Assembly (NCBI RefSeq): GCF_041381155.1
Contig: NC_091134.1
Location: forward strand, 63,294,902 to 63,358,901
Length of the DNA stretch: 64,000 bases
Direction: 5' to 3'
Source: Argopecten irradians
Taxonomy: Eukaryota > Mollusca > Bivalvia > Pectinida > Pectinidae
Part shown: positions 1,826 through 63,562 of the stretch, piece after piece
Numbering within the stretch: the stretch's first letter is position 1
Layout: each line of letters starts with the position of its first letter
Translations under genes and position numbers: made by a program
Notes under the pieces: generated by a model
The model's database searches: none
What the model was told of the DNA's origin: nothing
What the model saw: only the letters and a program-made list of their open reading frames with translations

Positions 1826-1843
1826 ATCCCACTTCTGACACCA
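1826..1843 (-). other. Primer-binding site, tRNA-Leu type
   Basis: Minus-strand TGGTGTCAGAAGTGGGAT is complementary to the 3' end of a eukaryotic leucine tRNA including CCA. It sits just inside the LTR, where reverse transcription of the element is primed. Confidence 0.8.
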
Positions 1844-1844
1844 A

Positions 1845-5562: not shown

Positions 5563-5753
5563 CTATTTTCCAATCTTTCTCAAAAATAAATTATTGCTCT
5601 TTCTCCTTTTTCTCCTATGAAGACATCTCATTCTATAAATAAACTGTTTTATAACTAGCAGAAATTCCTTGTCAGCTTTGATGGAAATGGAGCTGGAGGA
5701 ATGAAACTAAAAGGAATGAATAAAACTTCCGTGAGTAGAGCTTTGAAATGATC
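5563..5753 (-). mobile_element. LINE 3' tail inside the duplication
   Basis: Minus-strand translation gives the C-terminal tail of a LINE ORF2 (ends FLRKIGK then stop), identical in content to 54719-54934. A 36-bp stretch present in the right copy is missing here. The LINE is cut at the duplication end. Confidence 0.6.
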
Positions 5754-17780: not shown

Positions 17781-17813
17781 GTATAGTCGGTAGTAGTAAC
17801 CGCGGCGTCGTTA

Positions 17814-18575
17814 GCGACTATATAGGTAGTCAGCGACTACAAGGTAGTCGACGACAACGTAGTTGTCGGGAGTCACAGGACAGTGACTATACGCCTAAAA
17901 CCACAAGTTGATTAGTGACTATAAATGTAGTCAGCGACTACAAGGTAGTCGGCGACAACGTAGTTGTCGGGAGTCACAGGACAGTGACTATACGCCTAAA
18001 ACCACAAGGTGATTAGTGACTATATATATATATATAGGTAGTCAGCGACTACAAGGTAGTCGGCGACAACGTAGTTGTCGGGAGTCACAGTACAGTGACT
18101 ATACGCCTAAAACCACAAGGTGATTAGTGACTATATATATATATATAGGTAGTCAGCGACTACAAGGTAGTCGGCGACAACGTAGTTGTCGGGAGTCACA
18201 GGACAGTGACTATACGCCTAAAACCACAAGGTGATTAGTGACTATATATATATATATAGGTAGTCAGCGACTACAAGGTAGTCGGCGACAACGTAGTTGT
18301 CGGGAGTCACAGGACAGTGACTATACGCCTAAAACCACAAGGTGATTAGTGACTATATATATATATATATAGGTAGTCAGCGACTACAAGGTAGTCGGCG
18401 ACAACGTAGTTGTCGGGAGTCACAGGACAGTGACTATACGCCTAAAACCACAAGGTGATTAGTGACTATATATATATATATAGGTAGTCAGCGACTACAA
18501 GGTAGTCGGCGACAACGTAGTTGTCGGGAGTCACAGGACAGTGACTATACGCCTAAAACCACAACGTAGTATATA
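17814..18575. repeat. Satellite of about 110 bp, seven copies, full of dyads
   Basis: The landmark GGGAGTCACA starts at 17868, 17969, 18080, 18191, 18302, 18415 and 18525, so units are 101-113 bp; the length varies mainly through the (TA)n run at the unit border. Each unit holds several short palindromes: GTAGTCAGCGACTAC, CGACAACGTAGTTGTCG and GTGACT/AGTCAC. It starts just after the decayed LTR element. Confidence 0.92.
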
Positions 18576-21059: not shown

Positions 21060-22800
21060 AAGGAACTGGCTATTCACTTAAGACAAAAAGATTGTATATT
21101 TCACTTAATGTGAAAAGATTTTTATTTCCATTATGTGTAATTTCACTTAAGGCGAAAAGCTTGTTATTTCAATTATGTGTCTTTACACTTTAAGACAAAA
21201 ATTTTTTTATTTCCATTATGTGTAATTTCACTTAAGGCGAAAAGATTGTTATTTCAATTATGTGTCTTTACACTTAAGGCGAAAGATTTTTTATTTCCAT
21301 TATGTGTAAGTTCACTTAAGGTGAAAAGATTTTTACTTCCATTATGTGTAATTTCACTTAAGGCGAAAAGATTGTTATTTCAACTATGTGTCTTTAGACT
21401 TAAGGCAAGATTGTTATTTCCATTATGTGTAATTTCACTTAAGGTGAAAGATTGTCCATTATGTGTCCTTTACACTTAAGGCGAAAATATTTTTATTTCC
21501 ATTATGTGTGTAATTTCACTTAAGGTGAACAGATTGTCCATAATGTGTCTTTACACTTAAAGCGAAAAGATTTTTATTTCCATTATGTGTTATTTCACTT
21601 AAGGCGAAAAGATTTTTTATTTGCATTATGTGTTATTTCAGTTAAGGTGAAAAGATTGTTATTTCCATTATGTTTAATTTCACTTAAGGCGAAAAGCTTG
21701 TTATTTCAATTATGTGTCTTTACACTTAAGACGAAAATTTTTTTTATTTCCATTATGTGTAATTTCACTTAAGGTGAAAAGATTTTTATTTCCATTATGT
21801 GTAATTTCACTTAAGGTGAAAAGCTTGTTATTTCAATTATGTGTCTTTACACTTAAGACGAAAAGATTAATATTTCCATTATGTGCAAGTTTACATAAGT
21901 CACTTAAGGCAAAGGTTTTTATTTCCATTATGTGTTATTTCACTTAAGGTGAAAAGATTTTTATTCCATTATGTGTTATTTCACTTGAGGTGAAAAGATT
22001 TTTGTTTCCATTATGTGTTATTTCACTTAAGGCGAAAAGCTTGTTATTTCAATTATGTGTCTTTACACTTAAGACGAAAAGATTTAATATTTCCATTATG
22101 TGCAAGTTTACTTAAGGTGAAAAGATATATATTCATTATGTGTAATTTCACTTAAGGCGAAAAGATTTTTATTTCCATTATGTGTTATTTCACTTAAGGT
22201 GAAAAGATTTTATTTCCATTATGTGCTATTTCACTTAAGGTGAAAAGATTTTTATTTCCATTATGTGTAATTTTCACTTAAGGTGAAAAGCTTGTTATTT
22301 CAATTATGTGTCTTTACACTTAAGACGAAAAGATTAATATTTCCATTATGTGCAAGTTTACATAAGTCACTTAAGGCAAAGGTTTTTATTTCCATTATGT
22401 GTTATTTCACTTAAGGTGAAAAGATTTTTATTTCCATTATGTGTTATTTCACTTGAGGTGAAAAGATTTTTGTTTCCATTATGTGGTTATTTCACTTAAG
22501 GCGAAAAGCTTGTTATTTCAATATGTGTCTTTACACTTAAGACGAAAAGATTAATATTTCCATTATGTGCAAGTTTACTTAAGGTGAAAAGATATATATA
22601 TTCATTATGTGTAATTTCACTTAAGGCGAAAAGATTTTTATTTCCATTATGTGTTATTTCACTTAAGGTGAAAAGATTTTTATTTCCATTATGTGTTATT
22701 TCACTTAAGGTGAAAAGATTTTTATTTCCATTATGTTTCATTTTGATTTGCATAAGGTGCCTTTACACATTATTTCCATTATGTGTTATTTTCCACTTAA
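21060..22800. repeat. 42-bp CTTAAG satellite, about 40 copies
   Basis: Unit: TTATTTCCATTATGTGTAAT followed by TTCACTTAAGGCGAAAAGAT and two T. Variants TTTCAATTATGTGTCTTTAC alternate with the main form, giving a higher-order pattern. Long frames across it, such as 21177-21479, come from the period of 42 being a multiple of three and are not genes. Confidence 0.95.
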
Positions 22801-28409: not shown

Positions 28410-29771
28410 TCAATCCAGTTTCCAACCTGAGAAGGTAGATTCTCCAAAGTTTGTTCGGCTCAGAATGTTTCCGTGTCCATAGGTACTTCCCATACGGATC
28501 AGGACTCTATCTCCCTGATGTAAGGCGACAACAACAACAGCCGTCGTTTGGTGGACGTCGTTTACTACCTCAGCATCTGTCCACGACGATCCCGCGTACG
28601 CTCCATTCACCGCCAGGACGGTTTGGAATTGCTGATTCCCATAACAAAGTGACGTCCACGTTATTACGTAAGTTCCGGATTCTGGCACGGTATATATACC
28701 GTCGAAAGGATTGTAGCCGTTTCCATGGTCTAGTTTCTTGTGATCGTAGACCACTGTATTATCCTCGTGGTATTTCCGGTCTGTAGCTAGGCTGGAGTGG
28801 AACGCAACGCGTTGTCCTGGAGACTGACTAGATGGGGTGATACCTGCAAAACAGTGTAATGCTGAATAAAGGATCGAAAGTTTCCTCTCCAAGAATGAAA
28901 TATTTGGACAGATTGGTCACATGAATGGATCAATGGTCAGCTTAATATCGTCACACTAGTTTGATAAATTCAAATAAATGATTTCATTGGCGAATACGTG
29001 TTATTATACCAACACAGACATTACAATCAATTTGAAACATAAGATAACTTTTTAATGGAAAGTGAAGTATATGAGACGCGACAAACCATATATATTTTTA
29101 ATAGTTCTTGTTCCTGAACAACACAGCATAACAAGTATAAGCTTACGTTTATGAAACATTCTTGGAATTGCCGCCTTTGAGATATTCTGCTTACTAGTTT
29201 TCTGAGAGACTCTGGATCTAGAGGAAGACTTTTCATCTTGACGAAGCAAAGATTCGTAAGTTTCGTTGACGGAGAGATGAAATGAGTCCTGATTGTGAAG
29301 AGTGTTAGCAGTTGCATTTGCGAGAGATTGATAATTATCTGGAATTTTATCTCTCAATAGATTAAAATCCGTGTTCACATTTGCAAATCCAGTTGATTTT
29401 GTTTTATATGGGACAGTGTCATTGATATACATTTCCACATCTGTCACCCTGCCTTCCAATCTATCAACCATGGTGTCTTTGTATACCATTTCACGCTCGA
29501 GAGAAACCACTTTTTGTCTAAGCTGGGTGATTTCATTCTTCTGGTAAACCAAGTCTGATCTTAGCTGTTCTACATGCTTGTCTTTTTCGGTCAACATACG
29601 TTCCATTCCGTCAATTTTCTGGTACACAAAGGTCACAAGGTCATGCCATTGATTATCGTATTGGTCAAGGGTTGCTTCTTTTAGTGACCCAAAACAACCA
29701 GCTATGCACACAATTAAAATCAACTTCACAGAGGTAGAGGACATTTTGGCGTTAATTGAAACCATTGCCAT
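28410..29771 (-). CDS. Secreted coiled-coil C1q-domain protein, gene 1
   Basis: Two exons: 29147-29771 and 28410-28843, joined in phase 1 (donor GTAAGC, acceptor TTTGCAG), give 352 residues; the ATG at 29744 (MSSTSVKLILIV) places a signal peptide at the N-terminus and may be the true start. After the signal (cleavage near GCFG), residues about 45-120 form a heptad coiled coil (MERMLTEKDKHVEQLRSDLV). A Ser/Thr-rich link follows. Exon 2 is the C1q domain: RVAFHSSL, GIYTVPESGTYVITW, ALHQGDRVLIRM and the C-terminal FSGWKL, which are standard C1q positions. No collagen repeat is present, as in most bivalve C1q-like proteins. Expected role: secreted trimeric recognition lectin or opsonin. The neighbour at 34303-38627 has the same architecture and strand, indicating tandem duplication. 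Confidence 0.9.
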
Positions 29772-30254
29772 AGAGCTTCAATCTACTGATCTGGCCTATA
29801 TTTCTATCTCGTTTCTATTTCTGGATTACGTGACGATAAGATAATAATACTAGTTCTACATTAGTGATCCAAGTGTCCACTAGCGTACTAGCGTACCATG
29901 TAGGAAGTCGGGCATGTACTAGTTATAGTTTTCAAATGGGAACAACTTCAAGCACAACAAAGATAAGTGAACTTAAAAATGCTATATCACTAATAATTAC
30001 CGCATTCAATAGACGCTAACATAAAGATTGTAATCAGTGTATATTCCCTTTCTATAGTGGCTGGTGTTCGGCTGTGTCGCACTGTTACATTTGCGACCAC
30101 GCCAGGCAAAGAACAACAGTTGGCACACCCTGGCAGTTCTCACCAAATTACTGATGTGTATGTATACACACATCATATACAGCTGGGGGAATAAAATATT
30201 TGTACTGTGAAGAAAAAAAAACAAAAAAAAAAACAAAAAAAAAACAAAAAAAAA

Positions 30255-34302: not shown

Positions 34303-37300
34303 TTACTCCAGTTTCCAGCCAGAGAATGTAGGCTTCCCAATATCGGTTCGACTCAAAAGCGATCCGTGTCCCCAATGTGCTCCCATCCTTATAAAGATGT
34401 GATCTGCTTCAGACAGCAATAGGACAACCACAGCGGTACTCTGATCATATATCTCGTTGTGCGAAGCATCTGTAAATGATGACCCCATTATTGCGCCATT
34501 GACCACAATAACAGTTTGAAAATATTGCTGTTTTTCACAGATAGACTTCCAAGAGAATACATACGTTCCTGACTCCGGAACTGTAAAAATACCGTCCCCT
34601 GAATTGTAGCCATTGCCATTGTTCACTTTCACCAGATCATATACGATTGTGTTGTCTTCATGCAAATTTCTGTAGCCGGAAAGTTCAACGTGAAATGCAA
34701 CGCGCTGTGTTAGGGAAGGGCCGACACCTGCAACACAAATGTGGCACGCAAGATAATGCAAAATTCGTAAATGAACTTTTCATTATTAACCATATATATA
34801 TTTTGGAAATATTACTTTATATACATAAAAATAAGTCCTATTGTAGTAGGGTCATATTTTATGTGAATTTATGTATTAAATAAAAGTGGTATAAAAGTGT
34901 ATTTAAAAGATGTTCCAATATTTACAAATATACAATTTGTAGTGAATAATAATATTAATATATATCTTTGCCGTGCTGTGTTTTACTCGCGTGCGTAATA
35001 TAACATATATATTCGCGAGCGCTGCGTTTGTCTATATGTGTTGTTATGTATGACACTAAATACATGTAGTTATTAGATAAGGGAGATAACTCCTATAGCT
35101 TTATTATTGATACATCCTATAAAGTTCATATATCTAACTAAAAACAGTGGAAATAGATCAATCTAGATCCCTACTTATAATCAACATGTTTACAAACAAG
35201 TATGTTTATACATGATATTATTCTAGAAAGTTCTAGAGCCTAAATTAATGATATGAACTTTATAGGATGTATCAATAATAAAGCTATAGGAGTTATCTCC
35301 CTTATCTAATAACTACATGTATTTAGTGTCATACATAACACACTCCTCCTTAAAGAAAAGAAAGTTTTCTTGGAAAGGAAACTTTCTTAAAATATCAAGT
35401 TATATTTAAATCCTTGATAAAGCATCAGCCAGAATATTGTCTTTTCCTTTGATATGTTTGATGTCAAGATTGTACTCTTGCAAAGTCAAACTCCTCCTGA
35501 GAATTCTTTGATTTTTGTTTTTCATTTTCCCAATGAAAGTCAAAGGGTTATGGTCGGTGAAGACCAACACAGGCACAACTGTAGTGCAGAGATATACATC
35601 AAATTGGTTCAATGCCAAAATCAACGCTAAACATTCTTTCTCAATGGCGGAATAATTTCTCAAACTTCTTCGAGAAATAACAAATTGGATGGTCAATTTG
35701 TTCAGAACCTTCTTGCATCAAAACAGCACCAACACCTACATCGCTGGCGTCAACAAACAGTTTAAACTGTTTATTAAAATCTGGAGCAGTCAGAACTGGT
35801 GAGTTTGATAGTATGGCTTTCAATTTCTCAAAGGCAGACTTACATTCGTTAGACCAGACAAATTTGACATTTTCCTTGAACAAAGCAGTAAGTGGAGCTG
35901 CTATAACAGAGAAATTTTGACAAAATTTTCTGTAGTATCCAGCCATACCAAGAAATCTCATCAGCTCTCTCTTGCTTCCAGGAGATGGAAAATCTATAAT
36001 TGATTCTACTTTGGCCTGAACAGGTTTAACCTGCCCCTGTCCTACAACATGGCCTACAAATTCAACTGTTGCATGACAAAATTCACATTTCAATAAGTTT
36101 ACAGTCATGGTAGTGAGTCTCTCGAAGAATTCACGAATCCCGCGTAGATGGTCTTCCCACGTGTCGTGGTAGTTGATGACGTCATCAATGTATCCATCAC
36201 AGCCTTCCAGGTCTGATATCACGCTGTTAAGAAGACGTTGAAATGTTGCTGGGGCATTCTTCATACCAAACGGCATAACTTTGTACTGGTACAAACCTTG
36301 TGAGGTTTCAAATGCCGACACTTCTTTAGCTCTTTCTGTTAATGGCACCTGCCAATATCCTTTCAACAGGTCAACTTGCTTACGTACTTGGCTTTGCCAA
36401 CATTGTCAATACACGAGTCAATCCTTGGAATTGGATAAGAGTCTGTTTTACTGACAGAGTTTACTTTTCTGAAGTCAGTACAGAATCGGTATGTCTTGTC
36501 TGGCTTTGGCACCAGAACACATAGAGAGCTCCATTCACTTTTGCTTGGTTCAATAATATCATTGTCCAACATGTTTTGAATTTCTTTCTTTAAATGTTCT
36601 TCTTTCAAAGGATTGACACGGTAAGGATGTTGCTTGACAGGTGGCGCATCACCTACATCCACGTCATGATAGATAGCATCTGTATCCGGAAACAAATGTT
36701 TATACTCAAGTATCAAATCTTTCAGTTCATTGCGTTCCTTCTGTACAAACTGGATTTATTCCTGATATTATAAAGCTTTTGAAAAATTATACTCTTCAAT
36801 GTCATCTTATAACATATGTAAAGGCAGCACAATTTCCCTCCAAAATTATGTGGAAAAGGATAGTTAACTCATCGATATCTAACAGTGAAAATATGTTATT
36901 AAGAGAGCGAATGCACGCGGAAGGAGATTTCCTAAGATTCCAATATATACATTGATTGATTATTATAAGCTGCATTTCGCCGAGAGTAAAGAAGTCGAGC
37001 CACTTTTGTCTTTCTGTCACGAGCCAAAATTACAGCTTATATGTTAAGACACTGACCACGTATTCTTTTTATCCTGGAAATTTACCAAAATGCATAATTT
37101 TATTTTTATATATATAACAGTGTTACATTTATTAACATATTCGTATCACAATGTTCAACAAACGTGTCCTACTTTCATACAATGGATCAACCAGTAGGAG
37201 GTCAATTCTCACCCTTCTCGTATACATTTGAACTTGATAACCGATTAAAAAAATCTTTCAAATTTTCTTAATCAAAGAGTAAAAGCTCAAAGCGGTGAAA

Positions 37301-38627
37301 AAAAGGCGTCCAGAAATCCTGCATGACGACAACCGTGAATGACTGTTGGGAAATGTATATTCGCGCCAAACGGCAATCTGTGACGCCACGAAAACCTCAC
37401 AATATTAAATGTCGCTTATGTAGTCGCTTATGTGCTATTGGTGTATTGGTACTTGACTGACATTTGTTTTCTAGTGATACCGTCCGAATCTCAACTGATT
37501 TGATCATCTGACAGAAAACTTCAAAAGGGAGTAACAAAAGAAAATCTTAGTCATAGGATAAATATAATCTATCATTTGTTTCCCTTCGTATTAGATTTAT
37601 GATAAGAGTTTCGAGATTTTCATTTTTTGCTCGCCACAGGCTCGCAAAAAATGAAAAATTCTAAAGTCGTATCATAAATATGATATGAAGGAAAACGAAT
37701 GGCAGAACCTCTATATATATATTTGTTAATCGTACCGTATTCAAAAATAACTTTTTAATAATTTACATAGCTAATCAAAAAGCATTCAATTTGACCAGAA
37801 ACAATGCGTTATTATTTGTTGTTTGTTTTTAAACTCAAGAACAAGTTTTTAAAATTACATTGTATACTTTATTCTTTAAGCAGTCCTTGGCCATATAGGA
37901 TATGTGATTTTAAGACTGGATTTATACGGAAGCCTGTAAGTGCCAAATTAGAGCAAGATATGACAAAACTTACTGAGAGCTACTTTTGCGAATAAACACA
38001 ATACTTTTGTGGAAAAAAGTAATGCTTTTCTTGGTAATACTTCTTTATTTTTCATATCTTATTTGCCACAAATCACCTTCCTTAGTATTTACTTAGGTTT
38101 TGTTTTTATTCTTGGAGAAATGACCTTTGCATTGTCAGTGGGCAATTCCAACGAATCACTTGATGACCTATGAAATGAAGATTCGCGAGTCTCATGTTAG
38201 TCATAAGCATGTTTATACTGCCCGATATGGATGAGTCCTTGTTCAAGTGTTGCTGCGGTACTTTGTCCTCCCCTAATATGGGTAATGGTTGGTTCATGTC
38301 TGCAATCCTTTCCACTAAACTGTCGATGATTGTATCCTTATGAAGTATTGCCCGGTCCAGTAATTCAACCCGCCGCCTAAGTTTGCAGTCCAGTAATTCA
38401 ACCCGCCGCCTAAGTTCTGCCATTTCAGACTCCTGATTGGTAAGGACTGTTTCAAGTCGGTCAAACCTGGCACCCATTTCGGTCAGCAGTCGTTCCATTA
38501 CTCCGATCTTTTGGTAAACGGACTTTTCTAGCTCCAGCAATGGTTGCTTGTTTGGACTGATGTAGTTTGCATAAAGAGGATAAAAATAATTCATTACGCA
38601 CAGTATGAAAGCGAATTTTACGATCAT
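34303..38627 (-). CDS. Secreted coiled-coil C1q-domain protein, gene 2
   Basis: Exon 1 is 38168-38627, exon 2 is 34303-34727; the phase-1 join gives 294 residues and an exact stop. Exon 1: signal peptide MIVKFAFILCVMNYFYPLYA, then a coiled coil (residues about 35-110) with a 15-residue internal tandem repeat (ELRRRVELLD twice). Exon 2: C1q domain with RVAFHVEL, GIFTVPESGTYVFSW, DHIFIRM and FSGWKLE. The exon 1 donor (ATAG|GTCATC) is weak, so the exact join is less sure than in gene 1. The 3.4-kb intron hosts a Ty3/gypsy fragment and a 299-bp inverted-repeat block. Same role expected as gene 1. Upstream, a 92-bp unit is tandemly duplicated. Confidence 0.85.
35042..35340. repeat. 299-bp block with ~91-bp inverted ends
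   Basis: The first 91 bases (TGTTATGTATGACAC...) and the last 91 are reverse complements with practically no mismatch; the spacer is about 117 bp. The arms contain AAGGGAGATAACTCC. No target-site duplication is evident. It is either an LTR with extreme inverted ends or a MITE/foldback element next to the pol fragment. Confidence 0.85.
35042..36745 (-). mobile_element. Ty3/gypsy pol fragment with terminal block, in a C1q intron
   Basis: Fossil on the minus strand. Parts seen: RT (36716 down to about 35860, with FCTDFRKVN, MPFGMKNAPATFQRLL and YIDDV), RNase H (about 35800-35406, ending ILADALSRI), a polypurine run (AAGGAGGAGTG at about 35341-35352) and a 299-bp terminal block 35042-35340 starting TGTTATGTATGACAC. 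It is truncated at its 5' side and broken, by eye about two times. Its position after the purine tract suggests the terminal block is the 3' LTR. Confidence 0.8.
37610..37660. repeat. Hairpin TTTCATTTTTTGC / GCAAAAAATGAAA
   Basis: Arms of 14-15 bp around TCGCCACAGGCTC. Outer arms extend weakly (TTATGATA / TATCATAA). Confidence 0.7.
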
Positions 38628-38670
38628 GACTGCTGCATGTCCTGATGCTACTGAAAGTGTGATTGTCTTA

Positions 38671-38853
38671 TCTTCTTTGACACACGACCCGACCCCATAG
38701 ACAGATTAGAAAACATGACAGACAGTGTTCCTTCAACAGTATACATTTATAACACCGTCTATCTTCTTAGAAACACGACCCGATCCTATAGACAAATCCG
38801 GATAACATGACAATGTTCCTTCAACAGTATTCATTTAGAATACCGTCTATCTT
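38671..38853. repeat. 92-bp tandem duplication upstream of C1q gene 2
   Basis: Two copies starting TCTTCTTTGACACACGACCC at 38671 and TCTTCTTAGAAACACGACCC at about 38762, each ending in ACCGTCTATCTTCT. They lie 45-230 bases upstream of the start codon, so they may duplicate promoter elements. Confidence 0.75.
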
Positions 38854-42212: not shown

Positions 42213-45200
42213 ATGGATACGGAGGAAATGGAAGAGGACAATGATATCCTTCCGGACTTACCCGAAGGAGCACTTCGTGGGGCCGGGAGAAGAAGATCAT
42301 CGGTAGGTAGTTTACTGAACTATAGTAATAAGTAAAACGATCTGTTTGAAATCAACTTGAGATGAAACGTTCTGTATGAAAATCAGTTTTAAAAAGACTA
42401 AGAAGAAAGTAAAATCTTTCGAGAGAAACTACAGCATCAGTAGTACAGGAAATGTGTAAAACAATCACCAAACACTGCCACACAAAACAATCACCAACAA
42501 CTGCCACACAAAACAATCACCAAGCACTGCCACACAAAACACTCATCAAACACTGCCACACAAAACAATCCTCAAAACCTGCCACACAAAACAATCACCA
42601 AGCACTGCCACACAAAACACTCACCAAACACTACCACACAAACCAACACCAAACACTACCACACAAAACAATCACCAAAAACTGTCACACAAAACAATCA
42701 CTAAACACTGTCACACAAAACAATCACCAAGACCTGCTACACAAAACAATCACTAAAAACTGCCACACAAAACAATCACCAAACACTACCACACAAACCA
42801 ACACCAAACACTACCAAACAAAATAATCACCAAAAACTGCCACACAAAACAATCATAAAACACTGTCACACAAAGTAATCACCAAACACTACCACACAAA
42901 ACAATCACCAAACACTGTCACACAAAACAATCACCAAGACCTGCAACACAAAACAATCACCAAAAATTGCCACACAAAACAATCATAAAACACTGTCACA
43001 AAAAACAATCATCAAACACTGTCACACAAAACAATCACCAAACACTACCACACAAAACAATCACCAAACACCGCCACACAAAACAATCACCAAACACTAC
43101 CACACAAAACAATCACAAAACACTACCAAACAAAATAATCACCAAAAACTGACACACAAAACAATCATCAAACACTACCTCACAAACCAACACCAAACAC
43201 TACCACTCAAAACAATCACCAAACACTGTCACACAAAACAATCACCAAACACTGTCACACAAAACAATCACCAATACCTGCAACACAAAACAATCACCAA
43301 AAACTGCCACACAAAACAATCATAAAACACTGTCACAAAAACAATCATCAAACACTGTCACACAAAACAATCACCAAACACTACCACACAAAACAATCAC
43401 CAAACACCGCCACACAAAACAATCACCAAAAACTGCCACACAAAACAATCATAAAACACTGTCACAAAAAAACAATCACCACAAACACCGCCACACAAAA
43501 CAATCACCAAACACTGCCACACAAAACAATCACTAAAATCTACCACACAAAAACAATCACCAAACACTGTCACACAAAACAGTCACCAAAAACTGCCACA
43601 CAAAACAATCATCAAACACTATCACACAAAACAATCACCAAACACAGCCACACAAAACAATCATCAAACACTGTCACACAAAACAATCATCAAACACTAT
43701 CACACAAAACAATCATCAAAAAAATGCCACACAAAACAATCACCAAAAACTACCACACAAAACAATCACCAAACACAGCCACACAAAACAATCACCAAAC
43801 ACAGCCACACAAAACAATCACCAAACACTGCCACACAAAACAATCATCAAACACTGTCACACAAAACAATCATCAAACACTGTCACACAAAACAATTACC
43901 AAACACAGCCACACAAAACAATCATCAAAATCTACCACACAAAACAATCACCAATACTGCCACACAAAACAATCACCAAACACTGCCACACAACAATCAT
44001 CAAAACTTGCCACACCCGACATACATTTACCTCGCTGGAAATCTACCACCAATGAATATAAACAAGAGCCATTTGAAACCTGTCAGATAATACATTAATA
44101 GATTTCTTTTATGTCTAGTGGTATATTGATATGCAGTAATTAAAGTAAATAAATGTCATCTCTATTGTACCGAGGTTTTCCAATTACAGTAAGGGATGCA
44201 TATATCGAAATCATTTTACATTCATAAATATGTTCCTCCAGCTCCATGTTGAGGATGAGTACCTTGAGGGAGGTCGGAGGCTCTCCATAGAAGGATACTT
44301 AAAGGGCAGGAGGCGATCTTCCATTCGTAGAGGAAGTAATAGTCTAGATCTAACACAATTCCAGAAGAAACACACTCAGAAAAAACATCCTTTTGAGATC
44401 TACTCCTCCGAACCATTGTGGGAACAAGTGGATGATGAACCAGATATACCAGAAAGATGGAAGGGGAACCTTATCGATAAAGGGTAAGTGTCTGGTTATT
44501 GTGTGAGACACTCGAGAACTTCTGTCAATGAGAGACAATATTTTTCTATATGAGGCATCGCTATGGTGTTTTTGATTCCGTATTTAGGGGGATAAGGATT
44601 ATTCTGGATATAGTTTCCGGCCATTGTCAATTCATTTAACTTTGAGCGCATGTTGAAACCAAATACAAACGAATCAATTTAATTGTTATTTGTATATCTG
44701 ATGTTTATCAGTGATTTATGTGTTCAAAAAAATCAATTAATGAGTTTTACAAGTTTTATCATCTGTATCATTTCTGCAGGTCTCTGTATTCATTAAAGAA
44801 AGAAAATATTGCTGGTAGAGATTTACCATTTCTGGTGAAACCACCAAGAAAGAATGACGACGAGATCGTCCTAAACAACACGGAACAAAAGCGAGAGAGG
44901 GACTATATTTCTCGGAGTCATCTGACAGATAACAGCCAGACTAAATTCAATCGTGCAGTAATCCAGCACTTTTACAAGGCTCCAGCTCCACGTGCTCATC
45001 CGGGTTATGGTATGCCAAGACCGGAAACGACCGAAAATAGTCCGTTTCGACTTTTAATGAAGGACTTGGAACGAGATCCGAGTGTTGTTGCTATAAATAA
45101 CTATCCGTCCTTAACAGTTCCTCCTTCTTGTTCTAAATCACCAGGCTTTTGTGAAATCCTTGGACCAAGTGCATGTGCATTGTGTATAGAAGGATCGAAT

Positions 45201-45518
45201 AGATTTATTGGTGATGAACTTCAGAAAATTATCTTTCCGGAAATAGAAATGACTTCTGCTAAGTTGGTACAACCAAAACTCGCCAAAATCATGCGTGAAG
45301 GTCATCTGAATAATTTAAGGAAACTTAAATTACGTGAGATTCCTTTCCCAAAATTCATGCTACCATTGAAAAGACAGGAGAGCAATCTTCTCGGAAAGAA
45401 AATGTCTGCCTTAAGACGAGAACGGTCTAAGCTGAGTTCTGGGCCTTCCAAACACAGCTCCTATAGTGTTTCCTCCCGAACCACCCATCTTACAGCGGTT
45501 CACGAAGATAATTCTTAA
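42213..45518 (+). CDS. Unrecognised basic protein, three coding exons
   Basis: Exons 42213-42302, 44242-44483 and 44780-45518 join in phases 0 and 2 (donors TCATCG|GTAGGT and AAAGG|GTAAGT; acceptors TTCCTCCAG and TTTCTGCAG) to give 356 residues. Exon 1 is acidic (MDTEEMEEDNDILPDLPEG) and ends in RRRSS; exon 2 repeats the basic motif GRRLSI and GRRRSSIRRGS, which look like kinase sites of the RRxS type; exon 3 has PGYGMPRPETTENSPFRLL, a Cys cluster (CSKSPGFCEILGPSACALC) and a basic Ser-rich tail. No signal peptide or membrane segment. An acceptor-like TTCCCTAG ends at 42202, so exon 1 could be preceded by another exon. I do not recognise the family; conserved-looking exon borders and codon use argue it is a real gene. 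The first intron is mostly minisatellite. It converges with the DED-protease gene. Confidence 0.75.
42452..44020. repeat. 26-bp minisatellite in an intron, about 60 copies
   Basis: Unit CACTGCCACACAAAACAATC followed by ACCAAA, with variants (CTACC, CTGTC, CAGCC for CTGCC). It fills about four fifths of intron 1 of the gene at 42213-45518. Frames across it (TKQSPNTATQNNHQ) are artefacts. Confidence 0.95.
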
Positions 45519-47511: not shown

Positions 47512-50500
47512 TTAATCTTCTAAGACCTCTGGACAACAATCGATCAGAAGCCTTGTTATAACCGGCATGGCTACACCTGCCTCAAACAGGTACTGTGGCG
47601 GAGGGAAATTCTTATCCTTGTAGCAGAACTCTGGATAGCCTCTTAAGTACATCATTTGTACAACGCATCTGTCATCAATGATCGCAACAGCAGGAGATCC
47701 TGAGGATCTGCGTTCGAACTCCTTGGATGTGTGGAGAAACATCTTGCCAGTGACTGTGCAATTCATTCCATCGCCATAACGACATACAGCGTAATCACCG
47801 TGAACCGAACGGTTTCTGTGATCCTCCCACCACTTAATAGCTTTCGTGACATCCGATCTTAGTCCTTGATCGTCAACATAAACGCTACATTTGATGTCAG
47901 AGCGTAGGTCAACCTCTGTCTGCCCTTTCGGATACCCAATTAGATGTACGATATCTCTAACACTATCCTTCTCTAGCTGAAGCGGAGGCGGGGGAATGCT
48001 CTCTCCTGTCTGCATCTTCAGAACAATGACGTCATGGTCAACATCAGCAAACGGAATGTCGTATTCGAAACGGAATTCTCCGGCAGTTGTTTTACCATCT
48101 CTAATTCCAAACATTACCTTGGTAGCTTGCCTAAACAACTTATCGAACACTGCAATCGTAAAATAAATCACTCTCAGTAAAGACTAAAATCATATATACT
48201 GTTTTGTTTCCGACGAGACGTTTCTTGTGCTTGGAAATAAGACTATACAGTAAAACACGCTTACAACAAATTCATGATCATAACGTAGTTATTGTCATTC
48301 ACCGTTGAGGTTCTTATAAGATGTCTGTAATAAATGTTTAATGAATTATGCATATAACGAAATAATTTTGTTGATCCTCAGTGATTCGTTTCAGCCGTGT
48401 TTTACTGTATATATTTTAGGAAGAATAATACACTTTGAAAGAAAATGAACTTTTGTATTACATAAGCTTTATATCAGTTTTGACATAAAATATTATCAAC
48501 ATCACATTATTTCAAAACATTTTATTGTTTGTTTCAGTTTTACGGCCAATCGACAACCAAGGTCATTCAGGGTCAAACCACAAGTCAGACACCAATATTG
48601 TGATATAAAAATGACTGTATATAAAAGATCAGGATAAGACAAAGGCAAGCAAGAACCAAAACACAAATTGTAAATGTTGATTTAATAAAAAAAAAAGGAG
48701 TTGCGTGGGATAAAATAATTTTAGCTAAAACACATGCACAGTGTTGATGAAACGATGAGTTGATAAGATGATGCATGTAAAAGTAAAATGACATCGATAC
48801 CGTTATCTGAATGGCACTTAACTAGAAAGATACTTAATCATATTCCATACCTTCTATCTGTACTTCGTGATCTTTAAGAAATTCGAACAACTGTCCAAAT
48901 GGTAACGGTTGCTTCCTGGGATTTAAATATCCAGACTGGAACCCAAACAGGTCTTGGAGTTTCTTTTTAACAGATTCTTTCTTATCACTTTGTTCTGCCT
49001 TTTTTAATATCCGCTCCCAGACGATTTCTTCAAAATAAAAAATACAAATCATGACTTTATTCTACAACTAATCGGCAAATTGCACATGAACAATATTGGT
49101 TACGTATAACTATGTGTCATGTCGTGTTTTAGGGAGAGGACGTGTATAAGATATGTTGTCTGTCGTCTAATTCTTATTGTCTTTAATATTTGACAATAAA
49201 ATATTCTGAAATGAAATCTTAAAACAAAACTTGACAGTTGTTGTTGTTGAAAGTAACGTTTTCTAAAGAAATAGTTACGCTAAATGCAACAGTATTGATC
49301 CCAATTTTTAGCCTAGGTTGACAAATCAGCTCGTTGAATCGACTTGTTTTCCGGTAGATTTATTGATTTGTCAACAAATAAATGTGATATAATCACCGTA
49401 TCCATCCTATAGCAGGTCGAAATTAATATTAATTTAATTTATGTTATAGGCAACACATCTGTTTTGATATATATACGTTTAATTGCCATTTTGAACGTTC
49501 ATCCCATTACCTGTGTCCTTTACTATGATACATATCCGACGGGTTTCTGAAATTGGTGTTCAAATACTGAGAAAGCAGTGATTTTGTTGACGCCGTGGCT
49601 AGCCATGTAACACAGCCTCAGGCGACACGAGTGTTGTAAGGTTAGTAGAAGTTTCTTACTTACTTATTATCTCCTTAAAAACATGATATGCAGTCATGAG
49701 ATAGTTTTTTCCAACACGAAACCCTGTGGTCGATTCCAATAAGCAGCCGTCTTTCTTTAAAGTGATGAGTCCAATAGACTTCCTCAAACCAGGTATACCC
49801 ATCGCCTCTATGGTGGAATGTGATAGTGTCGCGTTCTCACTCTTATGGAAGTTACCTGCAGTACCTGGTAAACGTTAGAACATGGCAAGTTTGAATTGTG
49901 ACTAACAAAGGATATCAATCATACTGAGAACAATCGTTTTAGCATTTGATAATATTTTCCATGCTTTATATGCTTCTATTTATTAGCTGAATATTGAAAG
50001 ATGGATGAAAACGTGATAAACGTTACACAAAATCACGCTGACTTACCTCCATCTGTTTCTTTTACAGGAACAACTTCACGGACAAGCTGGGTATGGCCTG
50101 GAAAGGAATTTCGAGTATAATGACATGTCATGTACATACATTTAACACCAACAGCATTACATTTCAATTTTATTATTTACATGGCAGCGTGAGAACGATG
50201 ATGTTCTAGTAAATCATGAAAACAACATTCCGAACATCTACTCCTTTGAGATAGCCTATAAATCTTTTGAGTCGGTACAACATCATTCGCTCTTAATTGC
50301 ATGCACTTATATTGAATGGATGTTCCTTTGAAAGTGTCTGTTTCCTGGTCACTCAGATGTTTGAATAATTTGTGCATTGTCTCTTCAAACGCGTTAGCGT
50401 CTTACTAACCTTTACAACAACACAAAATATCAAGTTTTTCCGCCACCACGTGCAGACAGGGAGATACTTAGAGATAGAGACTGAGGGACACATACTTTTT

Positions 50501-53181
50501 AATAGGACGTGTTCCTATTTCAGTCTGTTTTTGCCGATGTAAGCAACTCTTTTAAAGACTTTGCATTCGATCTCACATTAAAAAATGGCGACATGACAGG
50601 TGATTTGACTTGATAGCTTACGAAGGAAAAACGTTAATCAAGCATGGCAATTAATGATGGCAATCGTTATGACTTAGTAACAGCTAGGTGACGATAAGTC
50701 TGCTATTCGGTCAAAATCGGTAGTAAATAACACATTTTACTGGGATCTAAACTTAGTGTTACTTGCTTATGTTTCATTTTGATTTCTACTACAATACACC
50801 ATACGTTCGAATTCATTTTTGTGTTGATATGTTATAAGTACATGTATGTTTGCGTTTTATTAACACAAACGTTTCATGAGAAAATTATAATAAAAATGAA
50901 ATTAGAATATTTCTTTTATGATATGAATGCTGATATTCATGTCGTGAAACTTTTGAGCCATACTGTTAGAAAATTTTGTACTGTTAAGTTATTTTAAGAC
51001 TACTGGAAATGTTTCTGTTTGGTATATTAAATGAGAATTCCTCACGCTAAAGATGACGGAATGCTCGTAAGAATTAATTACTATTCCACATTGTTCATAA
51101 AATAAACCGGTTTTGTAAGCTCCTGTTTTAATTGTGACAATTTTCGAAGAAAGTAAATGCGTTATTGATAATTAAACTTCTTTATCAGACGAAGCCATTG
51201 AAAACGTTCATAATTGCCTCAGCTGACTGACTCATGACCGTATTATGTTTTTTACATGTGTTGTATAATAGAACAGCTGTGGATATCACACGACAATCAT
51301 TATATTAGAAACGGTGAAGTTTACAATTACCCTGATATGTGCTTTTGATTGCTTTCATAATGAATAGCAATCACTAAACTGTCGTATTCGAAATGGAATC
51401 ATCCGGCAGTCGTTTCCCCATCTCTTACTCCAAACTGTGCCGTGACTTCTTGTTTGAATAATGTATCTATCCTGACAAATGATTTCCAATGATACTCTAT
51501 AATATGTTTTATTAGAATTTCATATTCTGAATATTTTTGCTGATGATTCAGATGAAATAACACCGAGCACTGATACAAAGGAATGTAAGAGCCTCACCTG
51601 TTTCTTGTTCTGGAACAACTTCTTGTGGGGGCTGGATATGTCCTTAAAATGTCAAAATAAAACATAAATCTTATGCACCAGTTACACACCAATAAGAGAG
51701 AATAGTTCTTTTTAAACTGGTTTAAGTTACATCAAAACGGTGTGAATCGGTAAATAAAACTTTTCTATGGAAACGCTCCACTCTCTTGTATCATTGAAAT
51801 TGTAATAACATATTTACATATCACTTTTAGTTTTGATAGTATTTAAACATTATGAAATAAAATGCCATTAGATTTATTCCAACAATATGCACTATTTTAT
51901 ATAGTTACATTCTTATTACTAATATACACAATAAACCTGTACTATGACTGTCAACCCCTGTACTCTCCTGGAGACAATCTCGTGTACCTACAAGTAAATC
52001 ATAGAAATATAGAATAGATAAGAATTCCACGGAAGAGGATGTGTCGCCTGAACAGCATCACAAAAAATGTTATTTACAGTTGAAAATATTGTTAATAATT
52101 AAGTGAAGTTATCAAGTCCAAAACTCTTGTAAATATTGATGCATTTTGACCAGTATTAAACCACTCTTAGATCTCATTAATATAAAGCAATATACCACAT
52201 TTGGTTGAAATTCGAAAATAAATACTAAAATTATCGAGCGGAAACCATAGTTTTATCTGTTTTGACGATTTTAAAGTCCCGTAATTCTTGCAAATATTGA
52301 AGGATTTTGACCATTATAAAACTCATCCGAGATCACATTAATATATAAAACAATACATAAAATTTGGTTGGAATCGGACAATAGATACTTAGTTATCGCA
52401 CGGAAACCGTTTCCCGGACGCCGACGACACCGACGCCGACATAGTGATACCTAAGTGTACGCAAGGGCGACACAAAAATGGATCCAGACGGTTATTTACT
52501 CTGACATCTGGTGGTTCGTAACATACATTGTTTTAGGCTGTGCACAAAATGTGGTAACCCAATCTTTTGTATTAGGTAAAAGTAGTTAGTCAGTTTTACC
52601 TATTGTAATTGCAAAGTTGACTCTGACTGTTACCTGGTCTACATTAGTGTATTATATAGCTGTTTATTGTCCTCCGTTGCTCCATCTGTTGGTGACATTT
52701 ATACAGGGCTGACTTAAAATCGTAGACACTGAGCGTATGCACGTATTTCCTATTATTTTGACGAGTTAATGTTTAAGTGCATGTGGTTACCGTAATAAAT
52801 ATTTGTTAAATGGGCTACTTAGACATGTGGCAACTTTTATTATTTCTATAAGTCATTGAGTATATATTTGTTCTCACCTTCATTCAACATAAGTTTGATT
52901 TCTGTTTCTTTTTGGTCAACGTAGGTACCAAGTCTAGGATTAACTGTTTTCAGTCTTTTTGTAAAGAATCCATAGTTACCCAAGAATATTTTCTTGTAAT
53001 TGTGAAGTGCTAAAAATAGCTCGGGTATCGTATTAATAGCATGTAAGTCCTTCCGCGAAAGTGGGGCGTCATTAAATAGATTTTTTATTCTATTGAATAC
53101 GTCAGACAAGATTTGAGTATCTAGATAATCTGTCATCTGGTTTTCGATCCAATTAGCTTCCTCTTTCACTTCTGTTTCCAT
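47512..53181 (-). CDS. Death-effector-domain/trypsin-like serine protease fusion
   Basis: Six exons, all joined in phase 1: 52878-53181, 51598-51642, 50047-50097, 49664-49855, 48851-49027 and 47512-48149; predicted 468 residues. Residues 28-95 are a DED (NLFNDAPLSRKDL, PELFLALHNYKKI) without a clear RxDL motif. Exons 2 and 3 are paralogous short linkers (GHIQPPQEVVPEQET; GHTQLVREVVPVKET). Residues about 150-468 are a chymotrypsin-fold protease: TGFRVGKNYLMTAYH (His191), DVDHDVIVLKM (Asp296) and RRSSGSPAV (Ser406, where trypsin has GDSGGP). The S-G-S-P form resembles FAM111 and HtrA-type proteases. No signal peptide, so intracellular. DEDs pair with other DEDs in caspase-8/FADD-type platforms; I infer a protease recruited or activated by DED clustering. 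An acceptor-like TTTTCAG lies 26 bases before the ATG, so a leader exon is likely. The DED exon is duplicated at 3762-4065; a decayed protease exon lies in intron 2. Confidence 0.82.
48524..48590. repeat. Short dispersed repeat, mollusc-type
   Basis: GTTTTACGGCCAATCGACAA then CCAAGGTCATTCAGGGTCAA resembles a degenerate form of a short repeat I recall as common in mollusc DNA (…ACGTCCTATTAACAGCCAGGGTCAT…). From memory only, so tentative. Confidence 0.25.
51355..51475 (-). pseudogene. Decayed protease exon, paralogue of exon 6 of the DED-protease gene
   Basis: Minus-strand translation gives RIDTLFKQEVTAQFGVRDGE, TTAG, a stop, then FHFEYDS. The functional exon reads VFDKLFRQATKVMFGIRDGK, TTAGEFRFEYDI at its start, so the match covers about 35 residues with one stop at the Glu position. 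An acceptor-like GTCAG precedes it. Homology ends about 120 bp in; the rest, including the catalytic Asp and Ser, is gone. It lies between linker exons 2 and 3, which shows that linker plus protease was once duplicated in tandem. Confidence 0.78.
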
Positions 53182-54592
53182 TTTGACTGTAGTTTCTCAA
53201 AACCTGAAAACAATTGTTTGGAAATGATGGTAAATCAATCGACACCTAGATCACAGACTCGTTGGTAACGCTAAAAGTAAACGTGCTGATTATAGGGTAA
53301 GGTTAAATCCGGACTTAGTTGACTCTTCTACTCTAGAGCTGGTGTAATTGGAAGCACACTTTATTTAGTATCTGCTGGTCGGAGGAAAATTTTAGTTAAC
53401 GTTCATCTCAAGCTATTTCGACCATCCGAGTATCATCATATTCGTGTCAACTTTCCAATAATTATTTTGATTTAGGGCATGTATATCTTGTGCAGTAGAA
53501 GGTGTAGGTAAAATATTGCGTAAGATAAGTTAAAAAAAAATTAAACAAATTCAGCTTTGTTTCCAAAATTCGTTGGTTAAGATGACTTCATATTCATGCC
53601 ATTTATTTGTTTAATTTATTTACCAGATAAGATAGCCAATGAGTTGTAACCACAATGCCGAATATTTCCGGGCAGACACTGCAAAGTATTACTCCCAATA
53701 TTGACTTTGTGAGAAGTTAACCATTCCACTTTTTAATGAAGTCAAAGTGGAGCTAACCCTCTATTACTAACACGTTTAGACCTTTTTCATAAAACCTCAC
53801 ATGCAATGAACACTCATTAAAGATCGTATATAGGATCTTAAATGAGTTTTCATTGCATATAAGGTTTTGTGAAAAGAGTCTTAGAAGGTTTTATTTTTAA
53901 AATTCCAATTTCATAAAATCTCATATGAAAAGAACAAAACTATAAGATATTTTTATCACATAACTAAAACAAGCTACATTTAGAAGTCACGTCATTGTTT
54001 GTTGACGACAAGTCATGACGTTACATTGGATTTCTAGTCAATTTCCAGCACAACAGATTACACTATTAACACATGCAAAAATATTACTTAATCGTTACTG
54101 GATACCAGAGGCATTTTTGTCCACACTGTCTGAATTCCGTCTTTGCCCCATATATATACTAATATATCTAAGCACAAAACACAGATGAACAATAAAATGA
54201 CACTTTTCTATCGCTCGCGCTTTCAGGATTTCCCCTTGTTCAGGCGATGTTTTAATGTCTAAGAGACTAATTTGTGACGTAAAATATGATTGAACAATAA
54301 AGAAGGGGGAGATAATAACGTTATACAATGGATTTAGTGCCGGTTTAAAAACAATCCCTTAGTTGTAAACTAAGAGATTGTGCAAAACTTTTAAAATCGA
54401 TACTATTTTTTTTTTGTATTTGTTTTTGTATTTTTTTTTTCAAATTTTGTAACACATTTGACATGAAAAACAGAGACACTTTCATTTTCCATATATACAA
54501 CGTACATACACACGCCTTATATTATCAAACATATATATATAGAGAGAGACGGAAAGCAAAACATCAGAAAAGAAAAAAGGAGAGGAAATTTA

Positions 54593-54663
<71 letters not shown>

Positions 54664-54934
54664 TTTATATTGTTAATATTTCAGGGTAAAGGAGTATGAA
54701 TAAAAAGTTAAAGTTTAGCTATTTTCCAATCTTTCTCAAAAATAAATTATTGCTCTTTCTCCTTTTTCTCCTATGAAGACATCTCATTCTATAAATAAAC
54801 TGTTTTATAACTAGCAGAAATTCCTTGTCAGCTTTGATGGAAATGGAGCTGGAGGAATATAGACCGAAAATAAAAGTTTGTTTATTGAAACCAAAAGGAA
54901 TGAATAAAACTTCCAGTAGAGCTTTGAAATGATC
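52204..54934. repeat. Segmental duplication, right copy (partner 3088-5753)
   Basis: Near-identical to 3088-5753. It contains the first exon and upstream region of the DED-protease gene and ends inside a LINE that continues only here. Just left of it, 52110-52203 is a diverged version of the block's own first 100 bases (CTCTTGTAAATATTGATGCATTTTGACC against ATTCTTGCAAATATTGAAGG), an older tandem repeat. Confidence 0.9.
54594..54658. repeat. (GA)n microsatellite
   Basis: About 32 GA units; the same site in the left duplicate (5483-5503) has only about 10, the largest difference between the copies. Confidence 0.95.
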
Positions 54935-58345: not shown

Positions 58346-58708
58346 TCTTCAGTTACAAAAGTTACTTACGTTACACCATTATCACCATTGAAAATTTTGA
58401 ACTTCTGATTTTACTTCAAGATAAAAAAAAACCATTAAGAATAATGAATTGCGTCCCGAAAAAAATCCGTGGCACTATAGCCTATATGGAATGAAGTACT
58501 GATTGCGCATGCACCAACAGCAAAATGAATGATTTTATATTATTTTTGAGTTGTGTTTATTAGACATATATATTGCGATTAGATACCAATTATTGTTCAA
58601 ATGATGAGTATCGTTTAAGCTCTGTCGGCGGTGGAACATTTTTTAACGGGATTACTTGTATTAGCAGTAAACGTGTTCCCAAAGTTGTTTGTGTTATAAA
58701 GATCTTAC

Positions 58709-59013
58709 CCGTTATTCATCAAACGTTGAATATCTTTCTCTTTCTTCTCCACTTCTTTAGCGAGTCTCAGATGAACCTTCCTCAGTCTTTCAGTAAAATA
58801 TACATAATCCCCTACCGCTATTTTATTTTCTCTGCGAAGTACTTGGAATAATTCGGGCATTTCTTTAATGTCCTGTAATTCTCTGCGTGTAAGTGGAGCA
58901 TCACAAAAAAGAAACTTTAATGTTTTCAATTCTGTGTCCAGAAGCTGATTGGCAAGATAATTCGCCAATTCATTGTGGGCCAACATGGCTTCCTCGTTCC
59001 CGTCTGTTTCCAT
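58709..59013 (-). CDS. Third death-effector-domain exon (diverged paralogue)
   Basis: Starts METDGNEEAMLAHNELANYL and ends RLMNNG at donor GTAAGA. Residues about 28-95 match the DED exon at 52878-53181 position for position (LKFLFCDAPLTRRELQDI, PELFQVLRRENKI, then YFTERLRKV); LKFLFCDAPL is very close to the helix-2 motif of caspase-8/FLIP DEDs. The exon border is at the same place in the alignment, but the donor as written leaves phase 2 instead of phase 1. No linker or protease exon could be joined within 53181-58708, so this may be a DED-only gene, a broken copy, or a gene whose other exons I cannot see. It lies upstream of and on the same strand as the DED-protease gene. Confidence 0.68.
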
Positions 59014-60480: not shown

Positions 60481-63400
60481 GCTATAGTTATTATGTATTG
60501 GAAGGTGTAGTTATTATGTATTGGAAGGTGTAGTTATTATGTATTGGAAGGTGTAGTTATTATGTATTGGAAGGTGTAGTTATTATGTTGGAAGGTGTAG
60601 TTATTATGTATTGGAAGGTGTAGTTATTATGTATTGGAAGGTGTAGTTATTATGTATTGGAAGGTGTAGTTATTATGTATTGGAAGGTGTAGTTATTATG
60701 TATTGGAAGGTGTAGTTATTATGTATTGGAAGGTGTAGTTATTATGTTATGGAAGGTGTAGTTATTATGTATGAAGTGTAGTTATTAGTTGAAGGTGTAG
60801 TTATTATGTATTGGAAGGTGTAGTTATTATGTATTGGAAGGTGTAGTTATTATGTATTGGAAGGTGTAGTTATTATGTATTGGAAGGTGTAGTTTATTGG
60901 AAGGTGTAGTTATTATGTATTGGAAGGTGTAGTTATTATGTATTGGAAGGTGTAGTTATTTATGTATTGGAAGGTGTAGTTATTATGTATTGGAAGGTGT
61001 TAGTTATTATGTATTGGAAGGTGTAGTTATTATGTATTGGAAGGTGTAGTTATTATGTATTGGAAGGTGTAGTTATTATGTATTGGAAGGTGTAGTTATT
61101 ATGTATTGGAAGGTGTAGTTATTATGTATTGGAAGGTGTAGTTATTATGTATTGGAAGGTGTAGTTATTATGTATTGGAAGGTGTAGTTATTTGAAGTGT
61201 ATTATTATGTATTGGAAGGTGTAGTTATTATGTATTGGAAGGTGTAGTTATTATGTATTGGAAGGTGTAGTTATTATGTATGTGTAGGTGTATTATGTAT
61301 TGGAAGGTGTAGTTATTATGTATTGGAAGGTGTATTATTATGATTGGAAGGTGTAGTTATTATGTATTGGAAGGTGTAGTTATTATGTATTGGAAGGTGT
61401 AGTTATTATGTATTGGAAGGTGTAGTTATTATGTATTGGAAGGTGTAGTTATTATGTATTGGAAGGTGTAGTTATTATGTATTGGAAGGTGTAGTTTATG
61501 TATTGGAAGGTGTAGTTATTATGTATTGGAAGGTGTAGTTATTATGTATTGGAAGGTGTAGTTATTAGAAGTTATTATTGGAAGGTGTAGTTGGAAGGTG
61601 TAGTTATTATGTATTGGAAGGTGTAGTTATTATGTATTGGAAGGTGTATTATTATGTATTGGAAGGTGTAGTTATTATGTATTGGAAGGTGTAGTTATTA
61701 TGTATTGGAAGGTGTAGTTATTATGTATTGGAAGGTGTAGTTATTATGTATTGGAAGGTGTAGTTATTATGTATTGGAAGGTGTAGTTATTATGTATTGG
61801 AAGGTGTAGTTATTATTGTATTATGTTGGAAGGTGTAGTTATTATGTTATTGGAAGGTGTAGTTATTATGTATTGGAAGGTGTAGTTATTATGTATTGGA
61901 AGGTGTAGTTATTATGTATTGGAAGGTGTAGTTATTATGTATTGGAAGGTGTAGTTATTATGTATTGGAAGGTGTAGTTATTATGTATTGGAAGTGTAGT
62001 TATTTGATGGAAGGTGTAGTTATTATGTATTGGAAGGTGTAGTTATTATGTATTGGAAGGTGTAGTTATTATGTATTGGAAGGTGTGTATTGTTTGAGGT
62101 GTAGTTATTATGTATTGGAAGGTGTAGTTATTATGTATTGGAAGGTGTAGTTTATTATTGGAGGTGTAGTTATTATGTATTGGAAGGTGTAGTTATTGTT
62201 ATGTTGAAGGTGTAGTTATTATGTATTGGAAGGTGTAGTTATTATGTATTGGAAGGTGTAGTTATTATGTATTGGAAGGTGTAGTTATTATGTATTGGAA
62301 GGTGTAGTTATTATGTATTGGAAGGTGTAGTTATTATGTATTGGAAGGTGTAGTTATATGTATTGGAAGGTGTAGTTATTATGTATTGGAAGGTGTAGTT
62401 ATATGTATTGGAAGGTTATTATATGTATTGGAAGGTGTAGTTATTATGTATTGGAAGGTGTAGTTTATTATGTATTGGAAGGTGTAGTTATTATGTATTG
62501 GAAGGTGTAGTTATTATGTATTGGAAGGTGTAGTTATTATGTATTGGAAGGTGTAGTTATTATGTATTGGAAGGTGTAGTTATTATGTATTGGAAGGTGT
62601 AGTTATTATGTATTGGAAGGTGTAGTTATTATGTATTGGAAGGTGTAGTTATTATGTATTGGAAGGTGTAGTTATTATGTATTGGAAGGTGTAGTTATTA
62701 TGTATTGGAAGGTGTAGTTATTATGTATTGGAAGGTGTAGTTATTATGTATTGGAAGGTGTAGTTATTATGTATTGGAAGGTGTAGTTATTATGTATTGG
62801 AAGGTGTAGTTATTATGTATTGGAAGGTGTAGTTATTATGTATTGGAAGGTGTAGTTATTATGTATTGGAAGGTGTAGTTATTATGTATTGGAAGGTGTA
62901 GTTATTATGTATTGGAAGGTGTAGTTATTATAGGTGTATTGGAAGGTGTAGTTATTATGTATTGGAAGGTGTAGTTATTATGTATTGGAAGGTGTAGTTA
63001 TTATGTATTGGAAGGTGTAGTTATTTATTATTGGAAGGTGTAGTTATTATGTATTGGAAGGTGTAGTTATTATGTATTGGAAGGTGTAGTTATTATGTAT
63101 TGGAAGGTGTAGTTATTATGTATTGGAAGGTGTAGTTATTATGTATTGGAAGGTGTAGTTATTATGTATTGGAAGGTGTAGTTATTATGTATTGGAAGGT
63201 GTAGTTATTATGTATTGGAAGGTGTAGTTATTATGTATTGGAAGGTGTAGTTTATTATGTATTGGAAGGTGTAGTTATTATGTATTGGAAGGTGTAGTTA
63301 TTATGTATTGGAAGGTGTAGTTATTATGTATTGGAAGGTGTAGTTATTATGTATTGGAAGGTGTAGTTATTATGTATTGGAAGGTGTAGTTATTATGTAT

Positions 63401-63562
63401 TGGAAGGTGTAGTTATTATGTATTGGAAGGTGTAGTTATTATGTATTGGAAGGTGTAGTTATTATTGTATTGGAAGGTGTAGTTATTATGTATTGGAAGG
63501 TGTAGTTATTATGTATTGGAAGGTGTAGTTATTATGTATTGGAAGGTGTAGTTATTATGTAT
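60480..63562. repeat. 23-bp minisatellite, about 130 copies
   Basis: Unit TTATTATGTATTGGAAGGTG plus TAG. Most units are identical; the exceptions are short deletions and insertions clustered at 60760-60790, 61185-61335, 61560-61600, 61980-62220 and 62340-62420, which look like either unequal exchange scars or sequencing/assembly noise. Confidence 0.97.

Follow-up and report, generated by a model that had tools for sequence, protein, structure and literature searches.

Gene structure at the locus

The window analysed here is a stretch of 64,000 nucleotides from the genome of Argopecten irradians (NCBI RefSeq assembly GCF_041381155.1, contig NC_091134.1, positions 63,294,902–63,358,901). This report concerns a minus-strand gene within it (53181–47512 in window coordinates), which is predicted to join an N-terminal death-effector domain (DED) to a C-terminal trypsin-like serine protease. 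Read directly from the DNA, the gene comprises six exons that can be spliced at GT/AG borders through introns that are all of phase 1, giving a product of 471 amino acids. The closest database match is P0001, an uncharacterized A. irradians protein of 488 residues from the public annotation, to which the spliced window becomes letter-identical once a seventh exon of 51 nt and phase 1 (51987–51937) is added. The six-exon model of uniform phase 1 put forward in a first-pass annotation, which was based on the DNA letters, holds for its exons, borders and phase and lacks this seventh exon of the public model. Its fourth exon was begun at 49855; P0001 uses 49864, and the AG at 49855 is an alternative that lies nine bases further along. 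The proposed junction of the DED exon with the protease exons is present in the public P0001 model, which is itself a prediction.

Protease domain

The protease half was assigned using the Pfam profile Trypsin_2 (PF13365; gathering cut-off 27.6 bits), against which the six-exon product scored 37.6 bits (E = 4.7e-9) and P0001 37.4 bits. Within the protein family described below, the cut-off was passed by four of seven members (P0001–P0004), P0005 (20.9 bits) and P0006 (17.7 bits) fell below it, and P0007 was without a match. The catalytic triad of His211, Asp316 and Ser426 (motifs MTAYHVF, HDVIVL and SSGSP; spacing 105 and 110 residues) is invariant in all seven aligned sequences, P0001 included, and corresponds, with the same two gaps, to the His191, Asp296 and Ser406 pointed out previously. 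The earlier claim of a trypsin-like protease is upheld by the profile score together with the complete triad. No caspase family was listed by Pfam at E = 10 for the gene product, a serine protease being found instead. The exon between His and Asp (49027–48851) probably encodes a helical insertion; the predicted model of the Pecten homologue P0002 has helices at residues 185–200 and 205–216.

The family alignment A1, which contains all seven members, was used for the protease columns, a profile search of the Protein Data Bank (PDB) and the prokaryotic and viral scans reported below. The profile gave five weak PDB matches (best E = 0.025), comprising four S1-type proteases and one Sel1-repeat protein, and a phmmer search of the PDB with the protease half gave none at E = 1. 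A Foldseek search with the protease half of P0002 returned human FAM111A (8s9k and 8s9l) as the best matches, which were weak, with poor TM-scores, and no match was obtained at E = 0.001. The previous suggestion to compare the protease with FAM111 agrees with this weak ranking. An NCBIfam search with four of the seven family proteins listed a single chance match.

N-terminal domain

Exon 1 was compared with the Pfam DED profile (PF01335; cut-off 35.9 bits) and scored 20.1 bits (E = 7.9e-4) on its own and, as part of the full-length protein, 16.1 bits (E = 0.014), both under the cut-off. A copy of this exon at 59013–58708, a domain of 102 residues, scored 36.6 bits (E = 5.3e-9), slightly over the cut-off, and a longer version of the copy, with a tail that was later discarded, scored 35.8 bits. 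The two sequences are identical at 42 of 100 residues (z = 36), and no other death-fold family was listed by Pfam for exon 1 and its copies. Since its own score lies under 35.9 bits, we read exon 1 as a diverged DED and not as a Pfam-confirmed one. The DED-like exon of the first-pass annotation stands in so far as the DED profile is matched and the 42%-identical copy passes, but exon 1 itself does not.

A profile of the three copies in the window had a single PDB match, to a chain named DED1ch (7lxc; E = 0.42), and a phmmer search of the PDB with exon 1 had two, at E = 0.43 and 0.64, both to one viral protein. When folded alone, exon 1 yielded a weak model from three sequences (mean pLDDT 66.7), with DEDs in none of 16 Foldseek rows and none of 25 VIA rows. 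What we take to be the RxDL charge motif of DEDs, placed by eye, was seen neither in exon 1 nor in its paralogue at 59013. Structure comparison of the predicted P0002 model revealed the six-helix fold of a DED at the same N-terminal place. The titles of the matched entries name DED assemblies of the FADD/caspase-8/cFLIP system and a FADD DED filament, and among the top DED matches was PEA-15, a DED protein that binds ERK2. The input for this model was alignment A6, in which the N-terminus of P0001 is a badly placed row.

Family distribution and proposed exchange of the N-terminal exon

A search of approximately 5.8 billion proteins returned seven family members, with P0001 as the best, and all six with a named source are scallops. 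The layout of an N-terminal domain followed by the protease recurs, with a different N-terminus, in P0002, P0004, P0005 and P0006. The proposed architecture is accordingly found in other scallop proteins, and because these relatives share the layout, it is stronger than the first-pass annotation could know. When the protein collection was searched with a profile, five of 6079 candidates were listed, all of them among the seven members above; the reach of this search is limited, since P0005 and P0007 were missed although they are in the profile. With residues 1–102 as the query, a length-limited protein search (24 candidates) returned P0001 alone. To look for protease relatives in prokaryotes and viruses, genome_contigs and viral_contigs were each scanned once; 22 and 44 stretches, respectively, matched the patterns, and none of them was confirmed.

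The relatedness of the two halves disagrees within the family. The proteases of P0001 and P0002 are identical at 187 of 329 positions (57%), and their N-terminal domains align with z = 0.2, 116 of 300 shuffles being equally good. P0005 and P0006 are deeper relatives, with proteases 35–36% identical to that of P0002 and N-termini clearly related to its own (z = 28.6 and 26.9). Against P0004, P0005 and P0006, the N-terminus of P0001 gave z values of -0.2, 2.4 and 1.8 (167, 11 and 21 of 300 shuffles scoring equally well), of which those for P0005 and P0006 are weak and were not counted as homology. A profile of the four other N-termini (A3) did not match profile A4 in a profile–profile comparison (probability 1.1%), and its five PDB matches, at E = 0.28 or worse, included no death fold. 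Alignments combining both DED types (A1, A2, A5, A6 and A8) fail to match them sensibly, and no Pecten-type N-terminal exon came up in the window when all six frames were searched with a profile at E = 1. The DED of Argopecten is not of the type borne by the four relatives that retain an N-terminus; it resembles the neighbouring DED-only frame at 59013. Because the relatedness of the DEDs disagrees with that of the proteases, the mismatch of A3 and A4 being part of the argument, the simplest reading would be that the ancestral DED exon gave way to another DED exon with matching phase. Alternatively, one DED may have diverged very rapidly, but such a change would need to be limited to a single domain in a single lineage. 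The features of the gene and of its duplicates are collected in Table 1.

Table 1. Exons, relic and DED copies in the window (all on the minus strand).
Feature	Coordinates	Strand	Evidence
Exon 1: start codon and diverged DED, 101 aa, phase-1 end	52878–53181	-	Equals P0001 residues 1–101; Pfam DED 20.1 bits
Extra linker exon, 51 nt, phase 1; in the public model, absent from the earlier six-exon model	51937–51987	-	Needed for identity to P0001
Linker exon, 45 nt, phase 1; duplicate of the linker exon 50047–50097	51598–51642	-	Splicing; P0001 match; 28 bp at 85.7%
Relic: start of last protease exon, intronic, in-frame stop	51380–51467	-	tblastn and DNA identity
Linker exon, 51 nt, phase 1; by eye, like the only linker in P0002 from Pecten	50047–50097	-	Splicing; P0001 match
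Protease exon carrying the catalytic His211 (MTAYHVF)	49664–49864	-	Pfam Trypsin_2; His invariant in 7/7 family members including P0001
Protease exon between His and Asp, probable helical insertion	48851–49027	-	Splicing; P0001 match; aligned in homologues; P0002 model
Last protease exon: Asp316, Ser426 (SSGSP) and stop codon	47512–48149	-	Splicing; P0001 match; family alignment
DED-only reading frame, 102 aa; TAA where exon 1 has its donor	58705–59013	-	Pfam DED 36.6 bits; 42% identical to exon 1
Almost identical exon 1 copy (99%; differs in a single residue)	3760–4065	-	Within duplicated segment

Duplications and alternative explanations

The DED exon lies within one of two duplicated segments (3088–5702 and 52204–54858), which span 2.6 kb each, are approximately 99.3% identical, have the same orientation and lie 49 kb apart. 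By inspection, one end of the duplication stops at the start of retroelement-like sequence, and the pattern could stem from recent duplication or from the assembly. The DED-only frame is found 5.8 kb upstream in the direction of the gene and may encode an adaptor or decoy. A two-exon version of this neighbouring gene was rejected, given that its junction was without a GT donor and the frame ends with TAA. The first-pass annotation noted neither the two further copies of exon 1 nor the intronic relic of a protease exon, nor the difference in DED type from the relatives.

Several observations weigh against a DED–protease fusion as modelled. The relic at 51467–51380 matches the start of the last protease exon both in translation (tblastn, 62% over 29 residues, E = 1e-6) and in DNA (56 bp at 85.7% identity, E = 9e-14), contains an in-frame stop and sits in the intron between two linker exons, that is, between the DED and the protease. 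The linker exons are themselves duplicates (28 bp at 85.7% identity with 50077–50050, E = 5e-4). Given the relic and the duplicated linkers, the locus probably underwent tandem duplication, after which one unit decayed, and the DED exon may derive from the decayed unit, being either spliced to the surviving protease or chained to it by the prediction program. If left unspliced and read beyond its donor, exon 1 gives a DED-only product of 111 residues; the neighbour at 59013 is likewise DED-only, and the DED of exon 1 is of a type unlike that of the four relatives that keep an N-terminus. These points would fit a chimeric gene model. In that case, the DED exon together with the first linkers would be part of an upstream paralogue that has decayed, or of a DED-only gene; the intact downstream protease would use another, unseen first exon; and the prediction would have joined them owing to the uniform phase 1 of the introns. 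The joined model is nonetheless the one held by the public annotation, also a prediction; the six-frame profile search revealed no Pecten-type first exon in the window; and a DED is expected at this place, as P0002, P0004, P0005 and P0006 share the architecture. On this evidence, we regard a chimera as rather unlikely. For a further possibility, that exon 1 encodes an unrelated helical domain, speak its score under the Pfam cut-off, the weak model with no DED among its fold matches and the failure of its profile to match the N-terminal domains of the relatives. This seems highly improbable in view of the 42%-identical paralogue that exceeds the cut-off, the absence of any other death-fold family from the Pfam lists for these sequences, the DED1ch chain as the sole PDB match of the three-copy profile, and the DED fold at the same place in the Pecten homologue.

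A different possibility accepts the protein but assigns the DED to localisation or inhibition, with a protease constitutively active in housekeeping, such as clearing protein obstacles as FAM111A does. FAM111A, which acts at replication obstacles, tops the Foldseek list for the protease half, and PEA-15 is among the best DED matches. The restriction of the named members to scallops, a DED that changes over a conserved protease and the DED duplicates nearby would, however, be more like a conflict gene, and a housekeeping role appears improbable to us.

Comparison with known systems

DEDs in animals are known above all as recruiters of caspases and, in the FADD/caspase-8/cFLIP system, form joint assemblies. 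The scallop protein is similar to caspase-8, caspase-10 and cFLIP in its N-terminal DED before the protease and in its presumed recruitment through DED contacts, and a single DED was found in it. A DED-recruited protease in which a serine protease replaces the caspase would be a variation on this known scheme. With FAM111A, whose active-site motif is SSGSP-like, the family shares this motif and the best, though weak, Foldseek matches of the P0002 protease half; it differs in its long insertion between His and Asp.

In the sections consulted of one FAM111A study (PMC10920703), the domain scheme comprises PIP, UBL, ssDNA-binding and protease parts, with no DED, and the enzyme is placed at replication obstacles. 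There, substrate cleavage, but not autocleavage, requires dimerization, which orders the oxyanion hole. Fusions of the death-like domains bDLD1 and bDLD3, or of EAD, to trypsin-like peptidases are described in bacterial conflict systems in the consulted part of Kaur et al. 2021 (PMC8195603), as are large expansions in oysters (Crassostrea) of proteins pairing DED with TRADD-N. The likeness to the bacterial fusions is one of design and, as far as seen, not of descent, because no protease relative was confirmed in the prokaryotic and viral scans. In amphioxus, death-fold domains have been exchanged before caspases, for instance DED and death domain (DD) replacing CARD (PMC3196919, in part); the swapping of death-fold modules before a protease is common to both cases, the amphioxus enzymes being caspases. 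Among the open-licence PMC articles found, as far as their consulted parts extend, none describes an animal DED–trypsin fusion.

Other features of the window

Two minus-strand frames (28410–28916 and 34303–34779) matched Pfam C1q at 44.8 and 56.5 bits and are likely C1q-domain immune genes in the neighbourhood of the DED–protease gene; the frames upstream of them (29052–29777 and 38106–38705) had weak, sub-cut-off matches of coiled-coil type. Retroelement-like frames occur at 1–3087, 13388–16480 and 35641–36755. These were judged by eye apart from three frames searched against Pfam, of which 13388–14089 matched a gag-type aspartic protease and a zinc knuckle, 35641–36405 a reverse transcriptase and RNase H, and 247–1713 nothing. 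Tandem repeats with strong skew are present at 60485–63562 (23-base units, approximately 136 copies, GC skew) and 42458–44015 (26-base units, 60 copies, with several plus-strand frames open), and further arrays at 21093–22743 (42-base units) and 17811–18564 (111-base units). An open frame of 267 residues on the plus strand (44715–45518) had no Pfam match at E = 0.01.

Proposed function and significance

On balance, we favour the view that the product of this gene is a non-caspase protease that acts inside the cell and belongs to a scallop family. In this family, the N-terminal DED would recruit the C-terminal trypsin-like, perhaps FAM111A-like, serine protease to a death-fold assembly. The intracellular location is suggested by the lack, by eye, of a hydrophobic N-terminus, and the protein may have a role in cell death or immunity. 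By analogy with the systems above, a functional reading of the fusion is plausible, and the most likely mechanism would be that a DED assembly forces the proteases close enough together to become active, because substrate cleavage by FAM111A needs dimerization and DEDs join into assemblies. The protease domains would be drawn together when the DED makes homotypic contacts with FADD-like adaptors or with a DED-only protein, for example the one encoded at 59013. Once closely packed, they would gain an ordered active site, much as FAM111A does on dimerizing, and the activated protease would then cut proteins of the cell or of a pathogen. In A. irradians, exchange of a phase-1 exon would have put a new DED on the protease in place of the ancestral one and rewired it to a new upstream partner.

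A broader proposal, which we advance tentatively, is that scallops possess a caspase-independent initiator system, in which DED platforms press FAM111A-like serine proteases together and thereby activate them. The DED exon before the conserved protease would be exchanged between lineages, connecting one and the same executioner to different upstream sensors. This would constitute an independent animal counterpart of the bacterial effectors that combine death-like domains with trypsin-like peptidases. If a DED does deliver a serine protease with a fold other than that of caspases, the principle of DED assembly would not be bound to caspases, and a testable non-caspase proteolytic arm would exist in invertebrate cell death or immunity. 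The conserved protease set against an exchanged DED would provide a natural case for studying the rewiring of death-fold circuits, in parallel to the bacterial systems.

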